A program made the translations under genes and the position numbers. Below are positions 2,210-56,186 of a stretch of 64,000 bases of DNA, in pieces (within the stretch, counting starts at the first letter, position 1; every line of letters starts with the position of its first letter). This DNA is from a virus: the IMG/VR virus record IMGVR_UViG_3300023237_000006, positions 1 through 64,000 of that record; one strand, given 5' to 3'. Below the pieces are notes generated by a model. That model was given only the letters and a program-made list of their open reading frames with translations. It did not search any database and was not told where the DNA came from.

Positions 2210-2464
2210 ATGATTAACCCATCAACAAAGCAATTTATGGATAAAGTATTGTCAGAAACTATCGGCCTATCCCCTGGGATGGCTGGCACAATATCTCCAA
2301 TACAATCCCATTCAGTTAATATAGTGACAAAAGAAATTAATGATGCTGCTGATGCAATTAGATTAATAATAGCGTCGGCCAAACAAATAGACCCAGAGTC
2401 TATAGATATTACTAAGGTATCTACTCTTAAGAATATAGCTATGACACTCCAAGAATTGACATAA
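2210..2464 (+). CDS. Small hypothetical protein
   Basis: 84 residues with no family recognised. The protein is predicted mostly helical: an N-terminal helix, a Gly/Pro-containing turn around residues 20-30, then 'NDAADAIRLIIASAKQ'-type helices. It is the only plus-strand gene in the first 8 kb and converges on the minus-strand gene at 2439, overlapping its 3' end by 26 nt. The opposite-strand frame at 2161-2382 gives a less protein-like sequence, so the plus-strand frame is preferred. The gene is plausible but unproven. Confidence 0.5.
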   Translation: MINPSTKQFMDKVLSETIGLSPGMAGTISPIQSHSVNIVTKEINDAADAIRLIIASAKQIDPESIDITKVSTLKNIAMTLQELT

Positions 2465-2981
2465 TTAATTCTTTATCTGAAGTAGATATGACCGACGGTG
2501 TAAAATAATTAATAGCTGCTGCAATATCAGTTGAAATTAACTCTCTAGTCATTGACCCTGAAATGCCTCCAGCTTGTAGAGGTATTTTTACTACCTCTAC
2601 AAGGGCATATTTTTCTGCATTATCAGTGAAGCCGTCATATCTTACAATATCCTCATCTTTTGCACCTGCACCTACCTTTATTGGTATACCCATATTATCA
2701 TCTGCAAAGGTATAAACACTTCTAACAGGCGTTACATCTGCTATTTGTATATCAATTGGCTTATTTAAATATTTGGAATATATTTGCCATATAGCCTTAG
2801 ATTGCAGGGCGGATATATCGTCTCTATCTTTTTTACCTATAAATATAATACCACGGCTACAGTCATTCAGTAAATATTTAAACGCTTCGAAATGACCAGA
2901 CGTTGGAGGTTTAAACCCCCCTGGTAATAATGCAATTTTTTCAGCATTTTTTGCATTAACGTAATCATCAAATTTAATCAT
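2439..2981 (-). CDS. Cytidylyltransferase-like nucleotidylyltransferase
   Basis: 180 residues. Residues ~18-31 contain 'LPGGFKPPTSGHF', the nucleotide-binding (T/H)xGH signature of the cytidylyltransferase/NMN adenylyltransferase superfamily. A C-terminal 'SGSMTRELI' resembles the second, ISSTxxR-type motif. Such enzymes transfer a nucleotide monophosphate from an NTP with release of pyrophosphate; the substrate here is unknown. It is the last gene of a late operon of nucleotide-handling proteins starting at 6659 and lies 1 nt after the ligase-like gene. It lacks a clear capsid-targeting cleavage site, unlike its operon partners. Confidence 0.8.
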   Translation of the reverse strand: MIKFDDYVNAKNAEKIALLPGGFKPPTSGHFEAFKYLLNDCSRGIIFIGKKDRDDISALQSKAIWQIYSKYLNKPIDIQIADVTPVRSVYTFADDNMGIPIKVGAGAKDEDIVRYDGFTDNAEKYALVEVVKIPLQAGGISGSMTRELISTDIAAAINYFTPSVISTSDKELIMSILGVS

Positions 2982-2982
2982 A

Positions 2983-4116
2983 TTATTCTCTCGTTATTGA
3001 TCTGTTTGCCTTAGAAAAGGTCTCTCTAGGTACCAACTTAATATCTCCACCAGTATGAGCTAATACATACCCTTCCCCACCTACCTGCCCATTTATACTC
3101 TGCTTAACTATCTGAGATCTACTATCGAATTGATTTATTATATTATCCTTTATTCTCATAATGCCGTTTACAATTTGCCAAACTGCGCCGAAGGCTTCTA
3201 GATTTTCCTGTACATAATTTATTATATTTTGTTTCTTATTTTCTGTAAACTTTGGTGATGTACTCACCCACTCAACAAAATCCAAACCTAGAGTATCGAG
3301 GCCGGTGTCAACCTTTGAGTTTGTATATGTATATAATATTGTTGCAAAGTTAGAAAGTTTAATATCTCTCAATGTCCTTTCATCTAACATCTTATCAATA
3401 GATACAGAATTTTTCATTATTGCATCTTGTATAATATCTAAATCATTTATATTGAGTGCAGGAGCTTCCTCTACAGTGACGGGAGGCACAACCAGTACAG
3501 TTGTACTATTATATATATCTTCATTTGTAACAGCAGTTTCATTTCCATCTGGATCAACCTCCCTATGTATAACAATACCAGCCTTTGACTTACTTATTCT
3601 CCTACCCAAATCGCTAGATATATCAACCCCATACTCTACTATATTAGGCTTAAATATATAATTACCTCCATATATATTTGGTGGTGAAGTATAGAGCAGA
3701 TCACCTTTAAAAAATCCCCTATAAGACTTAGGCACAGCCTGTTTAAACATATTAAATATAGAAGCCATACGATCCGCAAACTCTACATAGCTTGGAACTT
3801 CGCGACGAGCTCCCCCACTTCTAGATAAAAACATTTCTCTTAATTCCTCACCAGATTTAGCTAGACCGTTATAACCTTTCGCAGTAAATCCGGATTTATC
3901 CGTCAATATAAAATCTCCAGACTTATCTCTCCCAAATATCATCGCTGGGCTGCCATCCCACTTGAGGGTAACGTCTCTGTGATTATTCTGAAGATCTCTA
4001 AGAGACTTAATTGATCTCAGCGCTCCGCGACTTCCCTCCCAGAATATTATATCTTCTGCGTGCTGGATGCGAGCACTTGCCTCAGTTATAAAAACATAAT
4101 TTTTAAATTCTATCAT
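2983..4116 (-). CDS. KWDG-motif ligase/nucleotidyltransferase-like protein
   Basis: 377 residues. 'LKWDGSPAMIFGRD' (about residues 51-64) matches motif I (KxDG) of the covalent nucleotidyltransferase superfamily of DNA/RNA ligases and capping enzymes, with Lys52 the expected AMP-attachment residue. 'GFFKGDLLY' and 'KAGIVIH' further on could be motifs III and IV. Proteins of this kind occur widely in marine T4-like phages without assigned function. The N-terminus has an I-T-E/A site at residues 10-13, like T4 prohead-protease cleavage sites. The ATG follows immediately after the stop of the upstream gene (shared bases 4113-4116). Ligase activity is inference. Confidence 0.75.
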   Translation of the reverse strand: MIEFKNYVFITEASARIQHAEDIIFWEGSRGALRSIKSLRDLQNNHRDVTLKWDGSPAMIFGRDKSGDFILTDKSGFTAKGYNGLAKSGEELREMFLSRSGGARREVPSYVEFADRMASIFNMFKQAVPKSYRGFFKGDLLYTSPPNIYGGNYIFKPNIVEYGVDISSDLGRRISKSKAGIVIHREVDPDGNETAVTNEDIYNSTTVLVVPPVTVEEAPALNINDLDIIQDAIMKNSVSIDKMLDERTLRDIKLSNFATILYTYTNSKVDTGLDTLGLDFVEWVSTSPKFTENKKQNIINYVQENLEAFGAVWQIVNGIMRIKDNIINQFDSRSQIVKQSINGQVGGEGYVLAHTGGDIKLVPRETFSKANRSITRE

Positions 4117-4799
4117 ACTAAATTGATACCTAGGGTTTCTTCTGCCTGCTTCAATATACCTTTTACTGTTTCCTCATCAAACCTTGACCTAATAGCCTTA
4201 ATAATGGCGGGTATATTAAATAGATCTCTTGAGGTTGCTTTTTCATCTAGAATTAACTTCGATATCTCTTCTGGGTCCCTTGATACTATATTATTAGTGG
4301 CTCTATCTACAAGCCCCTTTGTAGATATTTTAAACCCCTTCACTTTTGCAATAGCAGATATAGTTATATTTCTATCTCTTCCTTTATATGGAGGAGATTC
4401 ATTACTAGCATAGAACCACTTTAAAAACTCTGGCTCATCATGAAACATAAAATCAACTTGAACCGTATCCTCTAGAGGTTGCATATCAATTTGAAATATA
4501 TGAGATCTAAATCCAACTTGAATACCAGTCTTCCTAATATCCGCCATTGTTGCCCCTGAGCTTAATAGCACTCTAATTAACTCATCCTTTGATATGATGC
4601 TGTCATCTACGACTATATCGATATCTCCAGATGTTTCCGTCTTTCCGGTAGATCCTAATATATTATCTTTCAGCGGGAGTCCAGTTATAGACTCTAAATG
4701 TCTTAGGGTAGGCCAAATCTCTGCCTTTTTAATTCTCCGTGATGAAAACATATTACCACCTTCATTTAAAATTTTTATATATTGTTTAAGTGTTTTCAT
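4113..4799 (-). CDS. Pol-beta-type nucleotidyltransferase
   Basis: 228 residues. 'GSTGKTETSGDIDIVV' (about residues 49-64) is the hG[GS]...DxD catalytic signature of the polymerase-beta nucleotidyltransferase fold, and 'VQVDFMF' about 60 residues later supplies the third carboxylate. All three metal-binding acids are therefore present. The family includes tRNA-modifying, polyA/CCA-adding and protein-nucleotidylating enzymes; the target here cannot be told. The N-terminus 'MKTLKQYIKILNEGG' resembles the T4 capsid-targeting peptide, with L-N-E/G at residues 11-14. The stop overlaps the next gene and its start overlaps the previous stop, so it is translationally coupled in the operon. Confidence 0.8.
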   Translation of the reverse strand: MKTLKQYIKILNEGGNMFSSRRIKKAEIWPTLRHLESITGLPLKDNILGSTGKTETSGDIDIVVDDSIISKDELIRVLLSSGATMADIRKTGIQVGFRSHIFQIDMQPLEDTVQVDFMFHDEPEFLKWFYASNESPPYKGRDRNITISAIAKVKGFKISTKGLVDRATNNIVSRDPEEISKLILDEKATSRDLFNIPAIIKAIRSRFDEETVKGILKQAEETLGINLV

Positions 4800-6256
4800 T
4801 ATCCTAAATATGTTATCGGTATTCCAGCAGCAAACTGAGAGTCTAATGCTAGAGTTAATCTGAATGGGTTTTTAGTATATATATTATATACGTTAATAAA
4901 ATTAATATATGGGTCTTCAGATTTAAATAATATAGGGAAGACATTAAAGGACTTCTCATTTGTAAACATTAAAACAGGGAACTTGTGAATAAATTGATAC
5001 GATACTGTATGTAATGTTCCAATTATAGCTTTTAAATCTCCTCTTGAATCATTAGCTAAAATCGCTGCCAAAACATCTGGAGTTAATATAGTATTTAGAG
5101 CATCCTTATAACTGGATACCATAGATGGTGGTAAATCCTCATTAATTAAATACAACAGCCCTTCAATATATGATTCCTTACTTAATCCCCAGGGTACCAT
5201 AAACGTATTACGTACAGTATCACCCCATGACGAGCTATATTCTTCTGGGTTAGCACTTATTAAGGCCTCTTCATAATTATTTATAGCATCTATAAATTTT
5301 TGTATTCGTTGACCTACCCCTTTTCTAATAATATCCGCGGTGGGTATTAACAGTTGAAGCTCTGATAACGTTTCGGATGTTAATTCAAAATTATTATCAT
5401 ATACTACATTTTTGACAATGTTATTAGCTATATCAATTACATTATGTAATATTGAAGCATCTTTATTCAAGCTTTCAGCCTTTTCTATGCCTAAGGTTGC
5501 ATAATTTATAAGACTTGAAATACTACCGTCATATGATTGAAATATATAATCCCTTTTTTTCCTAATCTCCTTACCACTATATATATTCCTACCTGCGTGC
5601 GTCTCTAAGAACTTTGGGAGTTCTTTAATAGCATTTAGTGCATTTTTACCCTTACCAGGTCTACCATTTTCCCCTTTAATTTCAACTTCGCCTATACCAG
5701 GTACATCCAGGTCGCCTCTCACACCTTTGGATGCATTTGAAAACATTGACATAACTAACTCACCCTTTCCAACAGCAACCGTTTGAATAGCAAAATTATG
5801 ATTATATATATATTCGTATGCAGCCTGGGGGTTACTAAAAAACCTACTCATAACATTCATACAGCCATTTTTAATATTAAAAGGTTGACCTCCCGCTATC
5901 TCTGTACCAAGCCAATCAAATGTTTCTTTAGCTTCTGAAAATTCTTTAAATTTTTCTATATCTACATCGGTAGTATTATTAATTATATCTAATACTGGTA
6001 TTAATACCTTCTGCTCGTATTCAACCTTTTTACCAGAGTCCCAACGACATTGATTGAGTATATTATGAACAATATCAGCAGTACCTCCCTTTTGTTTTGC
6101 TATAACTTGGCGCCTAATAACATTATAATAACTATCCTCAACAGTCCCTATAGACTTTGGCGCTTCTTCACCTAACTCCTGCGCAAACAACTCAACGTCT
6201 TCCTGCAATACTACTGTATTAGTATAGATATCTGAAAGTGATATATATTTACCCAT
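4799..6256 (-). CDS. Putative PD-(D/E)XK nuclease-like protein
   Basis: 485 residues, no firm family. Around residues 185-205 it has 'GDLDVPGIGEVEIKGE', which fits the D...(D/E)xK active-site pattern of the restriction-endonuclease fold; 'GRPGKGKNAL' follows. The rest is mixed helical. L-Q-E/D at residues 17-20 could be a prohead-protease site, though less typical than in its neighbours. It sits between a small acidic protein and the Pol-beta-type nucleotidyltransferase, with 1-nt gaps or overlaps, so it is co-transcribed. Nuclease activity is an inference from one motif region. Confidence 0.55.
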   Translation of the reverse strand: MGKYISLSDIYTNTVVLQEDVELFAQELGEEAPKSIGTVEDSYYNVIRRQVIAKQKGGTADIVHNILNQCRWDSGKKVEYEQKVLIPVLDIINNTTDVDIEKFKEFSEAKETFDWLGTEIAGGQPFNIKNGCMNVMSRFFSNPQAAYEYIYNHNFAIQTVAVGKGELVMSMFSNASKGVRGDLDVPGIGEVEIKGENGRPGKGKNALNAIKELPKFLETHAGRNIYSGKEIRKKRDYIFQSYDGSISSLINYATLGIEKAESLNKDASILHNVIDIANNIVKNVVYDNNFELTSETLSELQLLIPTADIIRKGVGQRIQKFIDAINNYEEALISANPEEYSSSWGDTVRNTFMVPWGLSKESYIEGLLYLINEDLPPSMVSSYKDALNTILTPDVLAAILANDSRGDLKAIIGTLHTVSYQFIHKFPVLMFTNEKSFNVFPILFKSEDPYINFINVYNIYTKNPFRLTLALDSQFAAGIPITYLG

Positions 6257-6257
6257 A

Positions 6258-6659
6258 TTAAATTGGAATATTCAGCTGCTCCCTTTCAACGCTATCATCT
6301 GAGGATGATGTATAACTAGATATAACCGTCTGTAGTATCTCTAATGTTTCCTTAGCGTTATTCTCATCAATTTCTGATTCATCTGGAACAGACGATAGTA
6401 AATTAGCTTTATCATCTAATGATAAATCAATTACTAATGCCTTTCGGACAAATCTTACGAGTACTACCTCGGCCTCAGGAGATAATACATCTACTTCTAC
6501 CTGATTATCAACATCATCTCCATCAATACCTGGAGATGATCCAACCTCATCAGTAACAGGTGCAGCTGCTCCCATCTCATCTCCAGGTAGAGTAAACTCA
6601 TCTGCCTCTAGTAATGTACCATAACCAGCTCTAACTATTGTCTTATTAAATTGCTTCAT
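6258..6659 (-). CDS. Small acidic protein, first gene of the late enzyme operon
   Basis: 133 residues, strongly acidic, with no recognised domain. A short basic N-terminus is followed by L-L-E/A at residues 16-19, matching the (L/I)xE cleavage pattern of T4 prohead protease gp21. Removing it would leave an almost wholly acidic protein. It heads the operon 6659 to 2439 and carries an exact late box just upstream. It may be an internal head or scaffold-like protein, or a partner of the enzymes encoded after it; both are inference. Confidence 0.6.
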   Translation of the reverse strand: MKQFNKTIVRAGYGTLLEADEFTLPGDEMGAAAPVTDEVGSSPGIDGDDVDNQVEVDVLSPEAEVVLVRFVRKALVIDLSLDDKANLLSSVPDESEIDENNAKETLEILQTVISSYTSSSDDSVEREQLNIPI

Positions 6660-6663
6660 ACAC

Positions 6664-6677
6664 TATTTATATTTATA
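6664..6677 (-). promoter_or_regulatory. Double late promoter box of the enzyme operon
   Basis: The minus strand reads TATAAATATAAATA, two overlapping exact TATAAATA boxes (6670-6677 and 6664-6671). They end 10 and 4 nt before the ATG at 6659, so the transcript would have a leader of about 5 nt or essentially none. The four genes downstream have no promoter of their own and gaps of 1 nt or less. Confidence 0.75.
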
Positions 6678-7824: not shown

Positions 7825-8097
7825 CTAATCTCCAGTCTTATTGTATTTTTTTTTATTCTTCTTTGTTTTTTTAGACTTTTTCTTAGATTTAATAGTTTTC
7901 TTACGAGTTTGTATATCCGGTTTTATGTTATTACCAAACATGTTTCTACTATCCCCTGGTGCATACGAGTCTGTCGTTGTAATATTAGTATCTGAAAATA
8001 TTTTTGCAGTATCGCCGAATGCGCCACCATCCCCCGCTGTCATATCCTCCCTTAATATTTTATTAAAAAAGTCCGCATATAAATTTGCCTTTGCCAT
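7825..8097 (-). CDS. Small late protein with Lys-rich tail
   Basis: 90 residues. The N-terminal part has 'NKILREDMTAGDGGAFG' and the middle 'TDSYAPGDSRNMFG'; similar 'EDMTAG...YAPGD.R' small proteins recur in marine T4-like phages. The last ~25 residues are nearly all Lys with Thr/Ser, which suggests nucleic-acid binding. L-R-E/D at residues 15-18 could be a prohead-protease site. An exact TATAAATA lies 5 nt upstream. The opposite-strand frame 7841-8119 is a shadow. Likely a small virion or internal protein. Confidence 0.65.
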   Translation of the reverse strand: MAKANLYADFFNKILREDMTAGDGGAFGDTAKIFSDTNITTTDSYAPGDSRNMFGNNIKPDIQTRKKTIKSKKKSKKTKKNKKKYNKTGD

Positions 8098-8112
8098 ATT
8101 AGTATTTATAAT
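8085..8112 (+). promoter_or_regulatory. uvsY promoter, TTGCCT-16-TATAAT
   Basis: -35 TTGCCT (8085-8090) and -10 TATAAT (8107-8112) with a 16-nt spacer; the uvsY ATG at 8119 starts 6 nt later. It would start the main recombination/replication operon. Confidence 0.6.
8103..8110 (-). promoter_or_regulatory. Late promoter box, exact TATAAATA
   Basis: Minus-strand TATAAATA ending 5 nt before the ATG at 8097. It overlaps the -10 of the divergent uvsY promoter (8107-8112) by four bases, so the two transcription modes should exclude each other. Confidence 0.75.
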
Positions 8113-14599: not shown

Positions 14600-16141
14600 A
14601 TGATAGGATATAGAAATATTGCGTACATACCTAGAACGAAGGAGGTAAAAGTTTGGACCTGGGATTCTGATGGTAATAGAATATCATACACTAAGTCGTA
14701 CACCCCTTATGTGTATATTGAAGATAAAAATGGGACAGATACTTCAATATTTGGTACTAAGCTCAAGCGTCGAGATTTTCAAACGCAGTACGCTCGAACT
14801 AGGTTTGTTCGAGATACTGGCATAAAGAGACTTTTTGAAAATCTACCTACTCATCAGCAATTTCTGTTAGATAAATACTGGGAGTTTAATGAGGGTGAGG
14901 AGTTTACATCCAAACCGCTCAAAGTACAATTTATAGATATTGAGGCTGTTGCGAGGGATGAATTTCCGAATGCTGAGGAGGCCAAGTACCCAATCAACGT
15001 TATAACTATTTATGATAATTTATTAAAGCATACATTTGTGTGGGGAGTTGGCGCATTTGACTCCTCTAAGTATCCTCCCGAAGATTTGACTTATTATAAT
15101 TGCCGGAATGAATTAGAATTGTTAGATAAAATGCTAACATTTTTTGAGAGTGACTATCCAGATGTAATCTCGGGATGGAACTCTGCTGGATTTGACATGC
15201 CATATATTATTAATAGAATAAACAATATTATGGGGGAGGATGAAATAAAGAGATTATCGCCCATAGGTAATGTTTATAATAGATCAATCAGAGGTATGTA
15301 TGGTAGAAATGATTTGAGATGGTATATCGATGGTGTATCTTGCTTAGATTATCTTGATGTATATAAACGATTTCAATTAAAAAATAGAGACTCATATAAG
15401 TTAGATAATATTGCAAATATAGAATTAGATTTAAGAAAAATTGATTACGGTAATATGCATATTGCAGATTTATGCGTTCAGGATTGGCAGACCTTTGTAG
15501 AGTATAATATTCATGATGTATTTTTACTTCAGAGATTAGATGAGGAATTGAGATATATGGAACTATTACGAATGTTAGCATATGTAGGTCTAACTACATT
15601 AGAGGCAGCTATGGGGGCAGTAGCTGTCATTAATGGAGCTGCAGCAATTAGAGCTAGACATAGAGATCAAAAAATTGCCACATTTATAAGGCATGAAGAT
15701 ACAGGGAAAAATCCAGGAGCGTATGTGAGCGAGCCTCAGGGAGGTTTTCAGCAATATGTAGTATCCTTTGACGCTAATTCCCTATACCCTAATATAATGA
15801 TATCCTTAAATATGTCCCCCGAGACAAAGGTCGGTAAAATTATATCTAAGAACGATAAGACAATTACAGTCAGGTATGTAAACGGTGAGACATTCGAATT
15901 ACCTTTAGAACAATTCGGTAGATTAGTACATAAGGAAAAAATAGCTATATCTAAAGCTGGCATTTTATTCTCTCAAAAGAAAAAAGGCATAATGCCCGAG
16001 ATGGTAGATTTTTATTATAATAAGCGCGTTGAAATTAAAAAATCATTGCAGGCTATAAAAATAGAGGCAAATGAGGTAGACAAGGCTATCAAAAAATTAG
16101 AGAAACTTAATAAGAAAAATGCCTTAGGTGTCTTAAGTTGA
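14600..16141 (+). CDS. 43A: gp43 DNA polymerase, N-terminal half (exonuclease and motif A)
   Basis: 513 residues of a family B DNA polymerase. Proofreading motifs: 'FIDIEAVA' (Exo I, around residue 113), 'NSAGFDMPYI' (Exo II) and 'YNIHDVFLL' (Exo III). Polymerase motif A is 'FDANSLYPNIM' (around residue 390). The protein then ends in a charged helix ('VDKAIKKLEKLNKK') and a TGA, before motifs B and C. These are in the next frame-shifted gene, 16189-17325. The two halves sum to 891 residues, close to the ~898 of T4 gp43, so no domain seems lost. Presumably the halves assemble into one enzyme. Confidence 0.9.
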   Translation: MIGYRNIAYIPRTKEVKVWTWDSDGNRISYTKSYTPYVYIEDKNGTDTSIFGTKLKRRDFQTQYARTRFVRDTGIKRLFENLPTHQQFLLDKYWEFNEGEEFTSKPLKVQFIDIEAVARDEFPNAEEAKYPINVITIYDNLLKHTFVWGVGAFDSSKYPPEDLTYYNCRNELELLDKMLTFFESDYPDVISGWNSAGFDMPYIINRINNIMGEDEIKRLSPIGNVYNRSIRGMYGRNDLRWYIDGVSCLDYLDVYKRFQLKNRDSYKLDNIANIELDLRKIDYGNMHIADLCVQDWQTFVEYNIHDVFLLQRLDEELRYMELLRMLAYVGLTTLEAAMGAVAVINGAAAIRARHRDQKIATFIRHEDTGKNPGAYVSEPQGGFQQYVVSFDANSLYPNIMISLNMSPETKVGKIISKNDKTITVRYVNGETFELPLEQFGRLVHKEKIAISKAGILFSQKKKGIMPEMVDFYYNKRVEIKKSLQAIKIEANEVDKAIKKLEKLNKKNALGVLS

Positions 16142-16188: not shown

Positions 16189-17325
16189 ATGCATATTGAA
16201 GATAAGATAGTAGCGCTAAAGCAAAAGCGTCATGAGCTCCGGATGGAGGAAAATCGATTAGATACAAAACAACTTACTATAAAAGTGCTTATAAATAGCG
16301 CCTATGGATATTTTGGTAATAAACACTCACCTATCGGTGATGATGATATAGCAAGTAGCATAACGCTATCTGGTCAGGCAGTGATTAAGCAGTCTAATAA
16401 GTTTGCTGCTGAGTTTTTACAAAAAGAAGCAGGAGTATCTAATGTTTATATGTCTAAAAACAGCCCTATTTTATACAACGATACAGACTCCTGCTATATA
16501 TCATTAAAGTCATTAGTAGATTCAGGTAAAATCCCGAATTTTGTAGATAGTAATAATAAATTAACGGCGGAGGTTTATGATTACTGTGAAAAATTAACGG
16601 TATATTTAAATGAAAAGATAATAGAATGGGCTAAGTCAGCCTTTAACTCTGAAGACTGTCGATTATTATTTAAGAGAGAAGTTATTAGTGATGTAAGTCT
16701 TTTTTTAGAGAAAAAAAGATACGCTATGCATATCTTAGATGATGAAGGTATTACTATGGACAAGTTTAAATATACTGGGGTAGAAGTAGTTAGAACAACT
16801 ATGCCAGATGCAGTAAAGCCATATGTAAAGGATATAATTGAAACTATGCTGATAGGACGGAAGCAGAAGGATACAGATGAGGCTGTTAAAAAGGCATATG
16901 ATGTGTTTATATCATTACCTGTAGAGGATACTGCATTTGTTGTTGGTTTATCTTCATTCGATAAATATCTTAAAGATTGTCATAATTTTAATACATGTAA
17001 GGGGATGCCAATTCATGCAAAAGCTGGATATTTTTATAATTGTGTATTGAAAGATAATAATTTAGATAAAATATATGAGCCCGCTGCTCAAGGTGATAAG
17101 TTAAGATGGATGTATGTTCAAAAGGGTAATAAATACGGAGTATCAGCTATAGGGTTTAAAGATAAATTTCCAGTAGAGTTAGAGGGTATGTTTAAAATTG
17201 ACTATGAGAAGATGTTTAGTAAAATTATATTCAACGTAGTAGAGAGATTTTATAAGCGCGTTAATTGGGTAGCTAGAAAACCTAATGACCAAATAAAGAC
17301 CGATTTGTTTGATTTATTTGCTTGA
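16189..17325 (+). CDS. 43B: gp43 DNA polymerase, C-terminal half (motifs B and C, thumb)
   Basis: 378 residues starting with a charged helix, then motif B 'KVLINSAYGYFGN' (about residues 35-47) and motif C 'YNDTDSCYI' (about residue 100), followed by the thumb. The C-terminus 'KTDLFDLFA' resembles the clamp-binding peptide at the end of T4 gp43. It is in a different frame from the first half, separated by 47 nt with a stop in its own frame at 16168, so no single base change would rejoin them. A purine-rich 'AGAGGGG' about 12 nt upstream is one of the few possible ribosome-binding sequences in the window. Confidence 0.9.
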   Translation: MHIEDKIVALKQKRHELRMEENRLDTKQLTIKVLINSAYGYFGNKHSPIGDDDIASSITLSGQAVIKQSNKFAAEFLQKEAGVSNVYMSKNSPILYNDTDSCYISLKSLVDSGKIPNFVDSNNKLTAEVYDYCEKLTVYLNEKIIEWAKSAFNSEDCRLLFKREVISDVSLFLEKKRYAMHILDDEGITMDKFKYTGVEVVRTTMPDAVKPYVKDIIETMLIGRKQKDTDEAVKKAYDVFISLPVEDTAFVVGLSSFDKYLKDCHNFNTCKGMPIHAKAGYFYNCVLKDNNLDKIYEPAAQGDKLRWMYVQKGNKYGVSAIGFKDKFPVELEGMFKIDYEKMFSKIIFNVVERFYKRVNWVARKPNDQIKTDLFDLFA

Positions 17326-18931: not shown

Positions 18932-18939
18932 TATAAATA
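18932..18939 (+). promoter_or_regulatory. Late promoter box, exact TATAAATA
   Basis: TATAAATA ending 5 nt before the ATG at 18945. It would place lipoprotein, protease and queC under late control inside the replication region. Confidence 0.78.
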
Positions 18940-26066: not shown

Positions 26067-26074
26067 TATAAATA
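26067..26074 (+). promoter_or_regulatory. TATAAATA box before the DHH gene
   Basis: Exact TATAAATA, 7 nt before the ATG at 26082. A TTGATT at 26047-26052 stands 16 nt before TAAATA (26069-26074), so this may be a combined host-type and late promoter. Confidence 0.5.
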
Positions 26075-26081
26075 ATTTATA

Positions 26082-26954
26082 ATGATATTTGTTTGGACGG
26101 ACGCAGATTTAGATGGTGCTGGAGCGAGCTTAATGCTCTCCTGGGTTATGGGAAAATCAGCACCCACCAAGGTAACTACTTGTAAGACTTTTGAGAGAGA
26201 TTTTAAAAGTTGGTATAATCATGAAGGCCATAAATATAATAAAATATTTATATGTGATATGGATGTTAGTGGGTGTATGGATCTAGTCGACCAGCATAAT
26301 ATATTTATATTTGACCATCACGATAGTCATATGGAGCATGTCGGTAAATATAAAAAGGCCCAAACTATAATAAAAGAGGCAGGATCCACAACTAAGCTAA
26401 TATACGAGTTTTTTAAAGATTCATTATCTCTGTTTAAAGAGCAGAAGCTACTTATTGAGCTAGTTGATGATTATGATAGCTATCAATTAAAATATGAACT
26501 ATCCGCAGATCTAAATAAATTGTTTTGGGGATTTTCTGGCAATCGCGTTCAGAAATTTGCTGATGCTTTCTATAATGGATTTACCGGATTTACATATACC
26601 CATAGTAATATAATTAATTTTTATAATGTAAAGCTAAAAGAGACTATTGAGGGGCTAGAAATACATACCGGTCAAGTAACTATAGGTGACGAAAATGTAA
26701 AGGTAGTTTCAACAGTTGCATCATTCGGTCTTAATGATGTGGCGCATAATATAATTGAAACCCATTCTGCTGATATTGGTATAGTAGTTAACCCAAATTC
26801 TGGGACTGTATCATTTAGAAGATCTAAAGAATGTAACATACCAGTTAATAAATTAGCTAGTAAATTAGCAGCAGGAGGGGGGCATGAGGCCGCCGCCGGA
26901 GGCACTTTAACCGATACATTTTTTACCTTTTGTAAAACACTTAAACCGATATGA
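26082..26954 (+). CDS. DHH-family phosphoesterase
   Basis: 290 residues. N-terminal DHH domain with 'TDADLDGAGAS' (motif I, residues ~6-16), 'CDMDVSG' (motif II) and 'FDHHDSH' (motif III), and a C-terminal DHHA1-type 'GGGHEAAAGG'. The family includes RecJ exonuclease, NrnA nano-RNase/pAp phosphatase and cyclic-di-AMP hydrolases. The compact size suggests an NrnA-like small-substrate enzyme rather than RecJ, but a role in recombination or oligonucleotide salvage cannot be separated by sequence. It lies between helicase and SSB genes. Confidence 0.85.
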   Translation: MIFVWTDADLDGAGASLMLSWVMGKSAPTKVTTCKTFERDFKSWYNHEGHKYNKIFICDMDVSGCMDLVDQHNIFIFDHHDSHMEHVGKYKKAQTIIKEAGSTTKLIYEFFKDSLSLFKEQKLLIELVDDYDSYQLKYELSADLNKLFWGFSGNRVQKFADAFYNGFTGFTYTHSNIINFYNVKLKETIEGLEIHTGQVTIGDENVKVVSTVASFGLNDVAHNIIETHSADIGIVVNPNSGTVSFRRSKECNIPVNKLASKLAAGGGHEAAAGGTLTDTFFTFCKTLKPI

Positions 26955-56178: not shown

Positions 56179-56186
56179 TATTTATA
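56179..56186 (-). promoter_or_regulatory. Late promoter box, exact TATAAATA
   Basis: Minus-strand TATAAATA ending 5 nt before the ATG at 56173. Confidence 0.78.

Follow-up and report, generated by a model that had tools for sequence, protein, structure and literature searches.

The first 64,000 bases of the 111,925-base virus record IMGVR_UViG_3300023237_000006 (the window) contain a block of five tightly packed minus-strand open reading frames (ORFs), which are separated by 1-nt gaps or overlap by 4 and 1 bases. The five genes of the initial annotation were confirmed, at 2439-6659. The products are a small acidic protein, a PD-(D/E)XK-like protein, a Pol-beta-type nucleotidyltransferase (NTase), a DUF6267 ligase-like protein and a cytidylyltransferase-like enzyme (CTase). 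The best explanation of the results, which we consider probable, is that the block encodes a repair kit for nucleic acid ends that is packaged in the phage head by means of T4-type capsid-targeting leaders. Packaging of the block proteins into the head is likely, and comparisons between relatives, together with the virion proteomes of homologues, speak for packaging and for processing. Cleavage, packaging in this particular phage, injection and the repair role are inferred.

Leader sites in the block and its relatives

The N-termini of three block proteins had been likened to the T4 peptides that direct proteins into the prohead, and the T4 genes ipII and ipIII were confirmed to start with MKTYQEFIAEA in AF158101. 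The protease gp21 cuts after L/I-x-E; in the leader of IPIII, targeting depends on residues 4 and 7 and processing on residues 8 and 10 (PMC9026906). The three (L/I)xE↓(A/G) N-termini described for the block (the arrow marks the predicted cut) proved exact: FITE↓A at residue 12 of the DUF6267 protein, LNE↓G at residue 13 of the NTase and LLE↓A at residue 18 of the acidic protein. The targeting positions are occupied by F4 and Y7 in the DUF6267 protein and in the CTase, and by L4 and Y7 in the NTase, while the 485-residue protein has a relaxed site only. A strict [LI]xE[AG] site that ends within approximately the first 25 residues is a feature of 7 ORFs among the 149 in the record; internal windows of similar size have one at a rate of 2.2%. 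The chance probability of its occurrence in three of five block genes is ~1e-4 to 2e-4, which is only modest because the block had been picked by the earlier reader. The comparative test described below is the stronger evidence, and that reader had no part in its choice.

Approximately 160 IMG/VR loci with the DUF6267, NTase and 485-residue protein families were collected, and a search of phage records for near DNA relatives gave no match. The five-gene order is kept in L014, L015 (which stops within the CTase) and L016, and partly in L017 and L018. Conservation of the block was thereby borne out, with leaders that had diverged and a cleavage-type site that was kept. Compared with MIEFKNYVFITE↓A in the window, the DUF6267 leaders of relatives include MISFKEYFILTE↓G, MIPFSQYFYLNE↓S and MINFKNYFLRE↓G; compared with MKTLKQYIKILNE↓G, those of the NTase include MKTFKQFFNLLKE↓G and MKTFRQYFTLLKE↓G. 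When similar proteins were grouped into clusters, 72-100% of the block clusters, depending on the family, had the relaxed motif. It was rarer elsewhere, at 41% among close same-strand neighbours, 22% among distant genes and 18% among internal windows. Percentages of this kind, here and below, overstate independence because the counted sequences, though distinct, share ancestry. The T4-type pattern, defined as F or Y near position 4, one of F, Y, I, L or V three residues on, and then a hydrophobic-x-E site, was seen by clusters in 62% for the CTase, 90% for a second ligase family (two clusters only), 32% for DUF6267, 18% for the NTase and 1.2% for distant genes.

The NTase leaders follow a strict rule. 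In 44 of 45 distinct leaders the residue directly before GG (P1) is E, and P3 is L, I or V in every one of these; P2 and P4 are variable, the length ranges from 4 to 44 residues and the sole exception is M↓GGN. Leaderless NTase homologues (PA5oct, immuto, Phosso) begin with MSGN, MGGN or MGGA, which is the predicted cut position. Short NTase leaders often fail the T4 position-4/7 pattern, and NTases whose leaders are too short may ride into the head with their ligase partner. For DUF6267, [LIV]xE lies at most 16 residues from the core in 69 of 72 distinct upstream ends, compared with 26% after shuffling, and the P3 residue is L in 39, I in 26 and V in 4. Because 2 to 10 residues separate the site from the core, depending on the protein, the motif is not simply a part of the core.

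NTase and ligase-like genes are often adjacent or fused among the relatives. Both domains share one ORF in L107, L117, L124, L126, L128, L142, L161 and others, and the junctions keep VITE↓A, VIVE↓A or similar, of the form (V/I)xE↓(A/S/G). A site kept at the junction suggests that the fusion is a polyprotein and is cut. Beside the NTase of L101, L105, L134, L106 and L166, DUF6267 gives way to a second ligase-like family (EKxDG, EWLYS, EGxVxK), in most cases with similar leaders.

Virion proteomes of homologues

Published mass spectrometry detected homologues of the CTase in purified virions of three cyanophages, namely T4-GC190 in S-SM1 (PMC3037559), ORF91 in S-SCSM1 (PMC9602691) and gp154 in S-CREM2 (PMC10665884). 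Their N-termini, MKKFSAFLNE↓AERSF, MKSFLQFLKE↓AAESG and MKNFSSFLTE↓ADEKQ, respectively, share the form MKxFxxFLxE↓A and the spacing of T4 IPII and IPIII, with the site at E10↓A11. S-SM1 and S-CREM2 each have a gene annotated as a prohead protease, and LLTE↓A stands near the start of the major capsid protein of S-CREM2. Among block relatives, a T4-type Gp23 was found in G001 and G006, and a Peptidase_S77 protease in G002. The PA5oct homologue of the NTase and several of its neighbours are annotated as structural by electrospray ionisation tandem mass spectrometry (ESI-MS/MS). The PA5oct gene three positions upstream is a DUF6267 relative (fold E 7e-5; profile over motif IV-V E 7.5e-5) that, unlike the NTase, is unmarked as detected by mass spectrometry. 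The suggestion that T4-like leaders occur on nucleotide-handling enzymes thus held up in independent tests: the site is kept on diverging leaders, leaderless homologues start at the predicted cut, and virion-detected homologues bear leaders of the T4 pattern. The CTase of the window has no consensus site.

Other virion proteins were considered and set aside. The S-SCSM1 proteins 89, 90 and 92, encoded near its CTase, had no detectable homology to other block members. S-CREM2 gp156, a PF01909 nucleotidyltransferase, is treated only as an analogue of the NTase because profile comparison (probability 0.3%) gave no support for homology.

Enzyme families of the block

The DUF6267 protein is the only block member with a Pfam match (PF19782; E 1.9e-37; 130 bits against a cut-off of 27). 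Its KWDG ligase-like motif, noted initially, was supported as motif I (K52xDG), which together with D139 (GD139) of motif III, E348GxV of motif IV and K360 of motif V is invariant or nearly so in 49 proteins. The structural model reached a mean predicted local distance difference test (pLDDT) score of 92.1, and residues 1-14 formed the only segment below 50, which was disordered. A fold search of the PDB placed a fungal tRNA ligase adenylyltransferase domain first, with a weak score (E 0.032, probability 0.35) and other ligases lower, and a search of viral models found a phage RNA ligase (E 0.004), likewise a tentative match. Comparison of the DUF6267 profile with PDB sequences gave nothing significant, and the RNA_ligase profile had no match in the block. 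Prokaryote genomes held 24 DUF6267 matches, mostly on short metagenome-bin contigs that are possibly phage, and no paper naming DUF6267 was found in the open literature.

The full D/D/D triad proposed for the NTase was supported, as D59, D61 and D116 are invariant in 8 aligned proteins, and so are G49 and S50 of the GS motif. No Pfam or other library profile matched this protein, a PDB sequence profile search had no significant match, and the RlaP profile (PF10127) matched nothing in the block or its relatives at E up to 1. The cytidylyltransferase-like identity was supported by the HIGH-type nucleotidyltransferase motif: GxFxPxxxGH and a downstream S/T..R motif are conserved in an alignment that includes the virion-detected homologues, with weak profile scores. 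PHROGs gave a weak cytidyltransferase hint, and the PDB a weak similarity to phosphopantetheine adenylyltransferase. The only residues that do not vary among 11 diverse CTases are M1, F4 and four of the enzyme domain. For the 485-residue protein, the PD-(D/E)XK identity holds at the motif level only; the residues E166, D182 and E192xK194 are the same in all 7 relatives compared, but the fold model had a pLDDT of 33 and was not used, and the family profile found nothing significant among PDB sequences.

Near the block genes of relatives lie, among others, a P-loop kinase of the zeta-toxin/AAA_33 type in HTVC008M and NT5C-type phosphatases in Melnitz and immuto. The close pairing of NTase and ligase, in many cases as a fusion, is together with the occasional kinase and phosphatase reminiscent of phage RNA repair sets.

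The upstream box

The initial annotation had read a double TATAAATA box as a late promoter driving the block as a single transcript. In the window, TATAAATA is not over-represented (34 observed versus 27 ± 5.5 expected), and a similar box precedes a replication-type gene. For ATAAATA, 15 of 22 upstream occurrences lie 3-7 nt before ATG, including that of the DHH-domain gene at 26082. Over the whole record, 32 of 53 upstream TAAATA matches fall within 0-9 nt of start codons, and Shine-Dalgarno-like words had neither enrichment nor a positional peak upstream of starts. Window examples of the TAAATA-type box are at 6664-6671, 8103-8110, 18932-18939, 26067-26074 and 56179-56186. Leaderless transcription from a -10 box would account for this spacing, and so would a translation signal of the non-Shine-Dalgarno kind. 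Since the box stands ~5 nt before many starts, that of a replication-type gene included, the block is not identified as late, and neither late expression nor a single transcript draws support from the box.

Neighbouring genes and other features of the record

Table 1. Features of the block and its surroundings, with predicted leaders (window coordinates)
Feature	Coordinates	Strand	Remarks
Small acidic protein, 133 aa	6258..6659	-	predicted leader residues 1-18 (6659-6606), MKQFNKTIVRAGYGTLLE↓A
PD-(D/E)XK-like protein, 485 aa	4799..6256	-	possible leader up to VVLQE↓D, residue 19
Pol-beta-type nucleotidyltransferase (NTase), 228 aa	4113..4799	-	GSTGK..SGDID; predicted leader residues 1-13 (4799-4761), MKTLKQYIKILNE↓GG
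DUF6267 ligase-like nucleotidyltransferase, 377 aa	2983..4116	-	predicted leader residues 1-12 (4116-4081), MIEFKNYVFITE↓A
HIGH-type cytidylyl/adenylyltransferase (CTase), 180 aa	2439..2981	-	GGFKPPTSGH; start MIKFDDYV, leader-like
Double TATAAATA box	6664..6677	-	present; earlier read as late promoter; kind common ~5 nt before starts
Candidate further head protein, small, lysine-rich	7825..8097	-	leader MAKANLYADFFNKILRE↓D (8097-8047), NKILRE↓D

Leader-like starts are not confined to the enzymes. The positional counterpart of the 133-residue protein in L015 has a leader ending in LIAE↓Q, and homologues of the candidate head protein at 7825..8097 retain LLE↓D in L014 and LME↓D in L015. At least five nearby genes of L134 have such starts (MIKFKDFFLLKE↓G, MISFKSFFIE↓N, MNFKTFFE↓N, MNFKEFYIE↓K and MSKFTKILE↓N).

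Several further observations were made in passing. A small plus-strand protein near the block (2210-2464) has the leader-like start DKVLSE↓T, and an L014 protein of similar start and position has LLKE↓D. Near-T4 leaders occur on neighbours in L096 (7686-7916; MKTFSQYISE↓A), L089 (4683-5792; MKTFKQYFFE↓S) and L085 (11332-11751; MKTFKQYIFE↓K), and a HAD-like protein of L085, identified by motif only, has MKSFKDYLIE↓E.

The record holds T4-type replication, tail and terminase genes. Its DNA polymerase is split over adjacent ORFs of the window (14600-16141 and 16189-17325), which cover positions 19-506 and 498-845 of phrog_262. A DUF1501 protein lies at 91653-92876 of the record (L006:10653-11876; E 1e-104), with a similar-looking protein in a relative (L134:11089-12324); DUF1501 is typical of Planctomycetota and Verrucomicrobiota, and its presence may hint at the host. 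A PP-loop (ATP_bind_3) protein, of the class that includes TilS, is at record positions 102940-103632 (L007:3940-4632), and a tilS gene has been reported in the jumbo phages MIJ3 and PA5oct (PMC6892783).

Proposed role and alternative explanations

According to the proposed mechanism, the block proteins would be made before or during head assembly, and would bind the prohead core by a short peptide at the N-terminus, in which the residues near positions 4 and 7 are aromatic or else large and hydrophobic. The prohead protease would then cleave past (L/I/V)xE and yield mature enzymes starting with G, A, S or similar, which would stay with the DNA inside the head and accompany it into the next host. 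In the new host, the DUF6267 protein, probably adenylylated on K52, would act with the NTase, the PD-(D/E)XK-like protein and the CTase on nucleic acid ends or nucleotides. The simplest action would be to trim, extend and reseal tRNA or DNA cut by host defence nucleases; delivery in the head would mean that such repair could begin ahead of phage transcription.

A number of observations weigh against this explanation. Profile searches for Gp23 and Peptidase_S77 had no match anywhere in the record itself, which is probably incomplete and has no recognisable capsid genes. The window CTase has no consensus cut site despite its leader-like start, and the DUF6267 proteins of P-HM1 and S-PM2 are without a leader. 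All virion detections concern homologues in other phages, and no detection of DUF6267 itself was found in the virion proteomes consulted. The authors of the S-CREM2 (PMC10665884) and S-SCSM1 (PMC9602691) studies noted a possible origin of the virion enzymes as abundant contaminants. By fold, DUF6267 resembles solved ligases only weakly, and the evidence for the repair role is indirect.

An alternative that we regard as unlikely is that the packaged proteins serve metabolism or signalling by nicotinamide adenine dinucleotide (NAD+), with a CTase resembling nicotinamide mononucleotide adenylyltransferase (NMNAT) that restores NAD+ after depletion by host defence, and the others processing related nucleotides. 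The CTase homologues of S-SCSM1 and immuto are annotated as NMNAT/NadR-like, the authors of the cyanophage proteomes suggest an NAD+ role, and head-packaged NAD+/ADP-ribose enzymes have been proposed for myoviruses (PMC9503650). However, the window CTase has no NMNAT assignment at the profile level, and the link between NTase and ligase-like protein, the tightest in the data and often a fusion, would be left unexplained.

Action of the packaged proteins in head assembly or DNA packaging, on genome ends or in tailoring the core, rather than in the next host, seems to us quite improbable. Genome ends could be acted on by a set of nuclease-like protein, ligase and NTase. In the window the block has uvsW nearby, and the S-CREM2 CTase lies near uvsY, uvsW, gp55 and head genes. 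Nevertheless, T4 packages its DNA without such a block, and the cargo varies among relatives, with the second ligase-like family in place of DUF6267, a variability to be expected of host-directed effectors. Improbable too is that the (L/I/V)xE segments are uncut, conserved N-terminal parts of folded, ordinary cytoplasmic repair enzymes: very short NTase leaders (MLTE↓GG, MILKE↓GG) do seem too short to target, but the P3/P1 rule is common to unrelated families, site-core spacing varies, leaderless homologues begin at the cut, the leader residues are disordered in the DUF6267 model and the virion-detected homologues bear a T4-like leader.

Extending the end-repair explanation to phages at large is more tentative. 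It is possible, though somewhat less likely than not, that many large tailed phages, mostly from aquatic metagenomes, inject an end-repair set in which a new ligase-fold family is paired or fused with a new Pol-beta NTase, made as protease-cut head precursors and sometimes as a polyprotein, which undoes host nuclease damage before phage gene expression. If true, repair of damage inflicted by the host could precede the expression of any phage gene. DUF6267 has no assigned Pfam role, and the cyanophage core protein T4-GC190 has a tentative one only. The leader pattern would account for the presence of such enzymes in virion proteomes. It also predicts the mature N-termini exactly, so that existing spectra can be searched for them, and provides a sequence rule to spot head cargo in uncultured T4-like phages.

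Comparison with known systems

Capsid targeting as such is known, as are effectors packaged in heads and the CTase in virions, and the end-repair kit would be a new cargo for that targeting; in the open literature, with subscription papers outside the search, no paper was found that ties the block, the leaders and T4 targeting together. Like the T4 proteins IPI-IPIII and Alt, whose capsid-targeting sequences are cut by gp21, the block proteins have a short N-terminal leader in which the residues around positions 4 and 7 are aromatic or large, with an (L/I)xE↓ site. The block cargo differs in consisting of nucleotidyl-transfer enzymes, and some relatives differ further by long extensions, by very short leaders or by fusion into polyproteins that have a site at the junction. 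The cyanophage T4-GC190 CTase shares a homologous HIGH-type domain, and its S-SM1, S-SCSM1 and S-CREM2 versions show the same leader type, whereas the consensus cut site is absent from the window CTase; the sources consulted propose a metabolic role and leave the leader unmentioned.

Large phages are also known to encode pairs of an RNA ligase and an RlaP Pol-beta NTase, the predicted task of the NTases being to restore lost bases ahead of ligation (PMC7824862). The block likewise couples a ligase-like enzyme with a Pol-beta-type NTase, but its proteins match neither the RlaP nor the RNA_ligase profile and bear leaders of the head-targeting type. Finally, the ADP-ribosyltransferase, Nudix and polyvalent effectors packaged in myovirus heads are proposed to be delivered with the DNA and to act early (PMC9503650). 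The block enzymes are similarly proposed to enter with the DNA, and they differ from these effectors in belonging to other enzyme classes and in having separate leaders in place of a fusion to head proteins.

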